DNA of 64,000 bases. It comes from Pseudomonas urmiensis (GTDB lineage Bacteria > Pseudomonadota > Gammaproteobacteria > Pseudomonadales > Pseudomonadaceae). The notes beneath the pieces are model-generated. The model ran no database searches. It was not told where the DNA came from and worked only from the letters and a program-made list of their open reading frames with translations. Where the stretch lies: NCBI RefSeq assembly GCF_014268815.2, contig NZ_JABWRE020000001.1:687001-751000 (forward strand), in the 5' to 3' direction. This document shows positions 7,302 through 8,651 of the stretch, in pieces. The stretch's first letter is position 1. Each line of letters begins with the position of its first letter. Both the position numbers and the translations under genes were made by a program.

Positions 7302-7375
7302 GAATGATCTCTTGGTGTGCTGTTACGGGCTTTGCCGGCCCTATCGCCGGGCAAGCCCGCTTGTATGGTTAGACT

Positions 7376-7536
7376 TGAAGGGGTGGTGGGACTAAATGCC
7401 CGATTCTGACTGTTCGCAGCAGTACAGACCGTGGGAGACATCGCCCCACCCCTTCCACCAAAGCGCCGATAAAGAATGCATCGTTTGCAAGCGACGATAG
7501 AAGCAAGCCAGCGCCTCTTGGTGAAACCCCTTCAAG
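7376..7536 (+). ncRNA. Candidate bridge RNA of the IS110 element
   Basis: The region upstream of the transposase folds into two loops. A perfect 10-bp stem (GAAGGGGTGG 7377-7386 with CCACCCCTTC 7446-7455) encloses a target loop containing GCCCGAT (7398-7404), matching the left REP flank GCCCGCT (7355-7361) at 6 of 7, and GTGGGAG (7431-7437), the exact complement of CTCCCAC at the right junction. A second stem (CACCAA 7456-7461 with TTGGTG 7518-7523) encloses a donor loop with AGAAT (7473-7477), identical to the element's right end, and TGCAAG (7486-7491), pairing with core CT plus the left end TGTA with one G-U. This is the known layout of IS110 bridge RNAs; the 3' end is approximate. Confidence 0.82.
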
Positions 7537-7571
7537 CCGAAAAACCTTAACGTGGAGAACCGCCCATCGCA

Positions 7572-8522
7572 ATGCAGGCAGGCAAACTGATCGTGGGTAC
7601 GGACGTCGCAAAGGCTGAGTTGGTTATCCATCACGACGCTAGTGATGAGGTAATCAAACTGAAAAATTCAAAACCCGACATCAAGCGATGGTTGAAACAA
7701 CAGCCGCTCAACACGGCTATCGCAGTTGAAGCGACCAACGTCTATCACTTGGACCTGGTCGAGTTAGCCCATGGTGCGGGTCTTGAGGTTTATGTCATTG
7801 ATGGCTTTCAACTGAGCAACTATCGGAAAAGTGTTGGAGGACGAGTCAAAACTGACCCTTCTGATGCGAGATTGTTGTCCCGGTTCTTGAGAAACGAAGG
7901 GGAAGATCTTCGCCCCTGGAGCCCCCCTCCCGCCGTCTACGGCAAGGTCCAGAGCCTTCTGCGACGCAGAGCTGCCTTGGTGACAGCGCGCACTGCAATG
8001 ACTCAGAGCTGGGCCAATGAAAGCCTTTTGAAGAGCGCCTTCGAAGTGTTCGTCAAATCGATAGACCGCCTCGATTTACTGATTCAGAAAAAACTTAAGG
8101 ACGTGCTCCGAGAAGCCGGACTACAAGAACAAGTGGCTCGCTGCCAAGCCGTAGAAGGAATTGGTTTTCTGACCGCTGCGGCATTAGTCATGGCCTTTGT
8201 CAGAGGCGAATTTAAAAACAGTGACTCCTTCATCGCATTCCTTGGAATGGACCTGCGAGTTAATGACTCTGGGCAGACGAATGGACGTCGTCGCCTGACA
8301 AAGCGGGGATGTTCAGAGATCCGTCGTTTGCTGCACAACGCGGCAATGTCCGCCAGCAGGTCGGCCGCTTGGAGAGACCTTTATGAGCAGCATCGAAACA
8401 GCGGTAAAGCAACAACCCAAGCCTTGGTCATCTTGGCTCGAAAGCTTGCCCGCGTGGCTTTCGCCCTGATGAAAAATCAGGGCGAATACATCACCAGAGC
8501 TATGAAATTGGCTTGCCCATAA
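7572..8522 (+). CDS. IS110-family transposase (DEDD recombinase)
   Basis: The 316-residue protein has the RuvC-like DEDD_Tnp_IS110 domain with Asp11 (VGTDVAKA), Glu53 (AVEATN), Asp95 and Asp98 (TDPSDAR), a middle helical coiled region, and the C-terminal Transposase_20 domain (VEGIGFLTAAALV, then TNGRRRLTKRGCSEIRRLL) with serines 260 and 262 as candidates for the catalytic Ser. IS110 recombinases use a bridge RNA to join donor and target DNA. The protein looks intact, so the element may be active. It shares little codon bias with neighbouring Pseudomonas genes. Confidence 0.93.
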   Translation: MQAGKLIVGTDVAKAELVIHHDASDEVIKLKNSKPDIKRWLKQQPLNTAIAVEATNVYHLDLVELAHGAGLEVYVIDGFQLSNYRKSVGGRVKTDPSDARLLSRFLRNEGEDLRPWSPPPAVYGKVQSLLRRRAALVTARTAMTQSWANESLLKSAFEVFVKSIDRLDLLIQKKLKDVLREAGLQEQVARCQAVEGIGFLTAAALVMAFVRGEFKNSDSFIAFLGMDLRVNDSGQTNGRRRLTKRGCSEIRRLLHNAAMSASRSAAWRDLYEQHRNSGKATTQALVILARKLARVAFALMKNQGEYITRAMKLACP

Positions 8523-8651
8523 CCATAGAATCTCCCACGCTGGCAGTGTTCTATCAAACAGCACGTGGGAGCGGGCTTGCCGCGCGATAGGGGCGCCTAG
8601 GCCCAAATGTGTTTATCATAGGCGTCTCTTTGCCTGGCTTGCACGAACACC

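Follow-up and report, generated by a model that had tools for sequence, protein, structure and literature searches.

The window, a 64,000-nucleotide stretch of the Pseudomonas urmiensis genome, contains a complete IS110-group insertion sequence of 1170 bp (7362..8531, + strand) that begins with TGTATGG and ends with ATAGAAT. Its ends were set by the divergent flanks of copies in the same genome, independently of end patterns, and comparison of these flanks also places a core dinucleotide CT on either side (7360..7361 and 8532..8533, +). The element disrupts a REP, the left target half being AAGCCCG + CT (7353..7361, +) and the right half of the same REP CT + CCCACG (8532..8539, +). Within the element, 210 bp of non-coding DNA lie 5' of the ORF start used and 9 bp lie 3' of the stop codon. 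The ORF encodes a DEDD/Transposase_20 recombinase of 316 aa (7572..8522, +), which matches PF01548, PF02371 and NF033542 above their cutoffs and is a relative of the structurally characterized recombinases of IS621 and ISCro4. Residues D11, E53, D95, D98 and S233 align with the active site of IS621, in which mutation of the corresponding residues was reported to abolish recombination (PMC11208158). With its DEDD N-terminal and Transposase_20 C-terminal regions, long 5' non-coding region and short right end, the element has the features of the IS110 group.

The genome carries four full and nearly identical copies of the element, which lie in four different REPs at one identical position (...GCCCG CT / element / CT CCCACG...). 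The joined flanks read GCCCGCTCCCAC, of which the genome holds 831 exact copies (both strands) versus 4 for a reversed control pattern. A single base, element position 207 (window 7568), sets the window copy apart from the other three: it has ATC (7566..7568, +) in place of their ATG, in frame and two codons before the ORF start used. Among the 163 distinct rows of the comparison described below this codon is ATG in 140 and GTG in 13, and because the window copy has ATC where its relatives have an in-frame ATG, it may have lost the usual start codon of the family. An ATG is still present at 7572 and the recombinase frame is open; the window copy is possibly weakened, with the recombinase translated less, or from 7572.

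Relatives were found in 59 of 398 genomes of the same genus (E <= 1e-30) and in 9 of 369 genomes of the class, own genome counted (E <= 1e-40); the named loci are the best 80 of 308 relatives found with an alignment as query, whereas a contig search with the single protein as query returned nothing. Together these gave 194 loci with a recombinase match, the loci of the two collections overlapping, from which deduplication left 163 rows, each a distinct combination of element and site, and 75 distinct left ends of 120 nt. The left end was not located in 8 of the 194 loci (L010, L033, L122, L136, L137, L167, L197 and L198) and the right end in 2 (L165 and L192); at L010 the script missed the left end because the donor loop is deleted.

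CT precedes TGTATG in all 186 rows with a located left end (not deduplicated), although the constancy of the ends and of CT at the right is partly built in because they were located by the patterns TGTATG and ATAG[AG]ATCT. There are no long terminal inverted repeats, and none of 8 inverted repeats of at least 10 nt links the two ends of the element. A short subterminal repeat around the donor, ACC...GGT or AAC...GTT, is present in 161 of the 184 rows, not deduplicated, in which both ends were located, the departures being 15 TGTATGCT rows and 8 others. Two kinds of longer right end were also seen. In L026, L063 and L064 (G080; also Pseudomonas sp. KNUC1026), about 190 extra bases separate the stop codon from the ATAGAAT end and, in the three copies read, include a REP-like half-site; flanking DNA may have been taken up at the right end of this element. 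In L104 (G390), a single copy, the right end lies about 160 bases past the projected recombinase end rather than the usual ~10.

Searches with the joined flanks matched at least 22 of 38 genomes, many of them via REPs, and no clean empty REP site was seen among the matches listed; in G015 and G007, the pieces of the outer flanks lie near each other at the orthologous locus, without the element and with none of the listed pieces covering the REP part. A megablast search of the PLSDB plasmids found no copy of the element. The own genome also holds a 40-bp right-end remnant (93%) at C1:177723-177762 (L005 1501-1540), flanked by two near-identical REP-containing repeats, which is perhaps an old copy lost through deletion or recombination.

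A predicted two-loop RNA at the left end

A covariance model (R1), built from 13 sequences that all belong to another subgroup (A3) and do not include the window's element, matched the 5' end of the element at 7374..7536 (+) with 129.1 bits (E 1.4e-27). The same model matched all 79 sources searched, all of which had been picked for containing the left end. In the predicted fold, an outer stem formed by CTTGAAGGGG (7374..7383, +) and CCCCTTCAAG (7527..7536, +; helix 1, repeat I2) closes both a target loop and a donor loop. The target-loop stem pairs GGTGGG (7385..7390, +) with CCCACC (7445..7450, +; helix 2), and a hairpin with arms TCTGACTG and CAGTACAGA (7405..7428, +; helix 3) separates the two target guides. 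The donor-loop stem pairs CACCAA..GCGC (7456..7466, +) with GCGC...TTGGTG (7511..7523, +; helices 4 and 5), and a further hairpin (7480..7498, +; helix 6), which holds TGCAAG (7486-7491), separates the donor guides. Folded alone, 7372-7540 was 3.9 standard deviations more stable than shuffles. The two stem-enclosed loops that an earlier note had read at this 5' end from the sequence alone were therefore borne out by the model match and the fold. At gathering thresholds, Rfam 15 gave no match within the window.

The earlier note had also proposed stem covariation as a check, and the stems do covary. The model-based alignment comprises 80 distinct rows; pairing is seen in 95.7% of its cells and a compensatory change in 41 of 42 pairs, counts that retain three weak extra model matches (L044, L047 and L055) and the L010 row. 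Cells with double changes numbered 338, versus 56.8 in shuffles and 15-55 after sliding by 1-3 columns, and the covariation score was 0.310 versus 0.087 shuffled and <=0.053 in slid versions, scores to be read in light of the alignment having been fitted to the structure. RNAalifold on a plain MAFFT alignment (A1) recovered 33 pairs, 8 of them with double changes. Read by eye, the target and donor stems in A1 were shifted from subgroup to subgroup; for this reason a structure was drawn up for a single subgroup (A3), and the remaining subgroups were aligned with the model.

An alignment-free helix search parsed 76 of 80 distinct left ends. The elements' own target-loop helices averaged 8.8 Watson-Crick pairs versus 7.0 for 600 random pairings of arms across elements, and the stems recovered differ in sequence both at the target loop (GGTGGGAC/GTCCCACC, GGGCGGGAC/GTCCCGCCC and GGGAGGAGGAGGG/CCCTCCTCCTTTC) and at the outer stem (CTTGAAGGGGT/ACCCCTTCAAG, CCTGTCGGGG/TCCCGACAGG and CTTGCCGGGG/TCCCGGCAAG). 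The outer stem was short or absent in some elements in this search, e.g. L163, L112 and L195. Elements of the window's own group instead gave GGGGTGG/CCACCCC as their longest helix at the target loop, in a register competing with the outer stem. This competing register, GAAGGGGTGG with CCACCCCTTC, appeared both in the helix search and in an inverted-repeat search, which returned the two registers side by side (I2, 7369-7384 with 7526-7541; I3, 7377-7391 with 7441-7455). Since I2 and I3 share bases, two alternative folds are possible.

Target guides and donor guides

The left target guide ATGCCCGAT (7396..7404, +; non-core part 7396-7402) and the right target guide CGTGGGAG (7430..7437, +) flank the target-loop hairpin, and A7438 occupies the handshake position after the right guide. 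As had been noticed previously, GCCCGAT (7398-7404) agrees with the left target GCCCGCT (7355-7361) at 6 of 7 positions, and GTGGGAG (7431-7437) is the exact complement of the right target CTCCCAC (8532-8538), core CT included. We compared these matches, and those proposed for the donor, with 20,000 dinucleotide shuffles of the element's first 175 bases. The left target guide pattern recurred in 7.3% of shuffles, GTGGGAG in 1.3% and both in order in 0.035%, while the donor motifs were frequent (AGAAT 21%, T[AG]CAAG 12%, [AG]CAAG 45%). The two target guides followed by AGAAT and [AG]CAAG occurred in that order in 0 of 20,000. Both donor matches are thus frequent by chance, and it is the target matches that carry the statistics.

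We then asked how the guides of relatives compare with their flanks. Since the position of the left guide would otherwise be picked by its best fit to its own site, a blind scan with exchanged targets provides the fair test. Left guides scored 6.13/7 against their own target versus 4.92 against the targets of other elements (n = 21 cluster representatives), and right guides 5.80/7 versus 5.33 (n = 20 cluster representatives). None of 5000 permutations reached the own left or the own right score, with a narrow margin on the right (best permutation 5.74); the clusters were drawn at 90% identity, and shared ancestry was modelled by that clustering alone. Unclustered values were 6.29 versus 5.20 for 75 left ends and 5.69 versus 5.54 for 71 right ends (best right permutation 5.68). 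Compared with the element's left end, the right core plus five bases matched at 7/7 in 149 of 161 sites and at 6/7 in the other 12; the left seven bases, with the guide position picked for each element by best fit to its own sites, matched at 7 positions in 82 sites, 6 in 56, 5 in 20 and 4 or fewer in 5 (163 sites).

Guides changed together with their targets on both sides. Right target/guide pairs in distinct rows were CTCCCAC/GTGGGAG (140), CTCCTAC/GTAGGAG (7), CTCCTAC/GTGGGAG (4) and CTCTCAC/GTGGGAG (1), with a right guide that is neither GTGGGAG nor GTAGGAG in 9 more. Counted by target, the GTAGGAG guide is found in 7 of 11 CTCCTAC rows, among them G094 and G356, and the GTGGGAG guide in 140 of 146 CTCCCAC rows. 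Retuned left guides include ATTCG with an ATTCG target (G018), GCCGG with GCCGG (G385, where one of three sites is GCCAG) and AGCCGCC with AGCCGCC (G080, whose right guide has one mismatch). Matching left guides also occur in other genera, GAAGCCG at L174 and AGTTGCG at L180, and two loci of one genome (G437), L114 and L117, have guides TCCCTGG and TCCTTGG at targets TCCCTGG and TCCTTGG, respectively; the right guide of L114 has one mismatch to its own target. L115, from another genus, has the guide GAGCCGAG for the target CTCGGCTC, and its right target is not REP-like.

Misfits were few. L173 and L025 have the left flank TTGGTAG. In both, the left flank CTCCCACATTTGGTAGCT repeats the right flank and the left junction is unmatched by the guide; because of this repetition, the junction looks rearranged. 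At L100 the guide is one base off register, at L084, L085, L087, L088 and L089 an extra base separates the guide from the hairpin, and L112, L115 and L199 reach at best 5/7, by eye or by scan. The best blind left match lay away from the guide position in some elements, e.g. L103, L108, L173, L195 and L199. Overall, the guides of relatives track their flanking targets rather than staying fixed at unrelated sites. By sequence, the left and right target guides are complementary to the bottom and top target strands, respectively, and covary with the target. The earlier note had named absent stem covariation, and unrelated targets with unchanged loops, among the results that would refute it; neither was seen, and stem covariation and this tracking together support its suggestion of a bridge RNA programmed for pseudomonad REPs.

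Right guides pair with core CT in full. Among the 66 left ends that match at 6/7 or better, the left guide faces the core with AT in 40, CA in 10, CT in 8 and other bases in 8; by eye across 21 clusters, it reads CT in 9, CA in 8, AT in 3 (the window's included) and is unclear in 1.

In the donor loop, the left donor guide AAAGAAT (7471..7477, +) matches the right end ATAGAAT at 6 of 7 positions, and its AGAAT (7473-7477) is, as previously read, identical to the end of the element (8527-8531). The candidate first put forward as the right donor guide, TGCAAG (7486-7491), was rejected: it sits in the variable apical loop of the donor hairpin and is missing from many relatives that have the same ends. 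The invariant CAAG at 7504-7507 fits better. CAAG is unchanged throughout a 44-sequence alignment, with G or A before it in nearly all, and in the window GCAAG (7503..7507, +) could pair with core CT plus TGT with one G-U, leaving C7508 at the handshake position. In IS621, C162-G165 pair with the donor and G161 makes a non-canonical pair with the next base (PMC11208158); conservation and this analogy make CAAG, pairing CT + TG(T), the better candidate. Each donor match alone is weak, the replacement GCAAG included, being common in shuffles, and because [AG]CAAG occurs in 45% of them the weight of CAAG comes from conservation and analogy.

Nearly all rows combine the donor ATAGAAT with a left donor guide AAAGAAT or AAGGAAT, and L115, with donor ATAGGAT and guide AAGGGAT, is the sole covarying donor case. 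As donor ends hardly vary and were partly found by pattern, the donor guides rest on conservation, L115 and analogy. The base after each right guide mostly fits the handshake rule of IS621. A follows GTGGGAG, and the base after CAAG is C with a pre-core target G in 143 distinct rows and G with C in 6 (one strain); the exceptions are C with T (3 rows), C with C (1) and G with T (1), and 9 of 163 rows were unparsed.

Proposed mechanism and relation to known elements

Taken together, these comparisons suggest that this IS110-group element encodes, at its left end, a bridge RNA that directs recombinase-mediated insertion into REPs, a reading that we hold at roughly nine chances in ten (0.92). The anatomy of the predicted RNA and the coupling of guides to targets are established at the sequence level by the comparison of relatives, while transcription, RNP formation and recombination are extended here from IS621. 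According to published work on that element, circularization restores a promoter, the RNA links donor to target, and a tetramer of the recombinase carries out strand exchange at CT (PMC11208160, PMC11208158). By analogy, the joined ends of the excised circle would form a promoter from which the RNA is made. Its first loop would pair with a REP half-site on each strand (AAGCCCG+CT and CT+CCCACG) and its second with the joined ends of the element (ATAGAAT-CT-TGT), and strand exchange by the DEDD/serine recombinase at the CT core would then place the element in REPs. A possible bridge RNA promoter of weak consensus is TTGCCC (8513..8518, +), which lies 17 nt before TATGGT (7364-7369) in the joined circle. 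Across 79 distinct junctions, the commonest bases of the hexamer were T (75), T (60), G/C (40/30), C (53), C (59) and C (57). In the linear window, a sigma-70 scan picked out a single promoter-like site, at 8502-8531, versus 0.6 in shuffles.

The main role of the left end could instead be that of a structured 5' leader on the recombinase mRNA, or of a region under antisense regulation, with the guide matches representing captured REP sequence. ISPpu9, another REP-inserted IS110 element, is described as having small RNAs and a structured 5' UTR that act on tnp expression (PMC8450116), and chance readily yields two of the four short matches. A leader, however, need not mirror the flanking target, whereas the guides change with the target on both sides, even at L115 with its right target unlike a REP, and their order (left guide, hairpin, right guide, twice) is that of IS621 (PMC11208158). 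We therefore regard a leader as a highly improbable explanation of the matches, though one region could serve as both bridge RNA and leader.

It is more plausible, though still unlikely, that the element does encode a bridge RNA and that the window copy, or all copies in its genome, are no longer active. There are just 4 copies for 831 exact target sites, and the in-frame ATG shared by the other three and by 140 of 163 distinct rows is ATC in the window copy alone. Against this, an ATG remains at 7572 and the frame is open, the upstream ATG survives in the other three copies, the only difference among the four is one base in 1170, which lies outside the predicted RNA, and the active-site residues are kept.

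This element is very probably a member of the bridge RNA mechanism published in 2024 and not a new mechanism. Bridge RNAs of the IS110 family have been reported (Durrant et al. 2024, PMC11208160), and the legend of Extended Data Fig. 10c in that paper names ISPpu10 and ISPa11 among six bridge RNAs inspected by hand. A 2006 paper described ISPpu9, ISPpu10 and ISPa11 as inserting into REPs (PMC1525189), and seekRNA elements have been reported to be naturally reprogrammed (PMC11187229). No paper titled for this Pseudomonas urmiensis element appeared among the literature matches listed. ISPpu10 resembles the window's element in recombinase family, in insertion into Pseudomonas REPs with a 2-bp repeat (PMC1525189) and, by the legend's description of its RNA, in predicted target and donor loops (PMC11208160). 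Database proteins named ISPpu10 share 65% identity over the whole length (P0095) or 76% over 83% (P0097, partial) with the window's protein, which indicates that the name is loosely used and that the window element is distinct; one P. putida strain carries a relative 97% identical to P0095. ISPpu9 of P. putida KT2440 is likewise an IS110-family element, inserted in P. putida REPs between the same two bases as ISPpu10 but described as not highly similar to it in sequence (PMC1525189), and carries sense and antisense small RNAs (PMC8450116). The seekRNAs of IS1111/IS110 elements are also RNAs from a non-coding region that match both target strands (PMC11187229), but the elements listed as studied there are ISEc11, ISKpn4, ISPst6 and ISPa11 (IS1111) and ISEc21 (IS110), which are outside the window element's clade.

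IS621 (structure 8wt6) shares the DEDD + S active site, the CT core, an RNA at the left end with two loops that each hold a left and a right guide, and a CAAG right donor guide (PMC11208158), although its recombinase is a distant relative of the window's (phmmer E 5e-22, profile E 2e-32). Unlike IS621, the predicted window RNA lacks a separate 5' stem-loop before the target loop, its outer stem closes both loops, and its left guide faces the core C with A. Outgroup elements have, by eye, a hairpin-like insertion where the window lacks this stem-loop. The surrounding Pseudomonas elements might form a structural variant, with one outer stem and no separate 5' stem-loop, a core C unpaired with the left guide in 3 of 21 clusters, and a target loop repeatedly retuned to the host REP consensus, a proposal that we put forward tentatively and consider unlikely. 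If true, only one strand of the core C would be read in the cluster of the window's element and in two large neighboring ones, and the retuned loops would form a natural series of reprogrammed guides.

More generally, a bridge RNA could be read here from raw sequence and then checked by comparison. The family is compact (a recombinase of 316 aa and an RNA region of about 163 nt, with many naturally retuned target loops directed at CT-core sites) and may be of use for finding orthogonal recombinases and for testing how much core pairing the left guide needs. Guide pairing would also offer a mechanical reason for the occurrence of ISPpu10-like elements at one REP position in Pseudomonas.

A separate observation concerns the relative at L010 2440-2620 (-) in G091 (86% aa), in which the recombinase frame and the target loop are intact and the donor loop is deleted, apparently between two CCCCTTC repeats, leaving a natural half bridge RNA.
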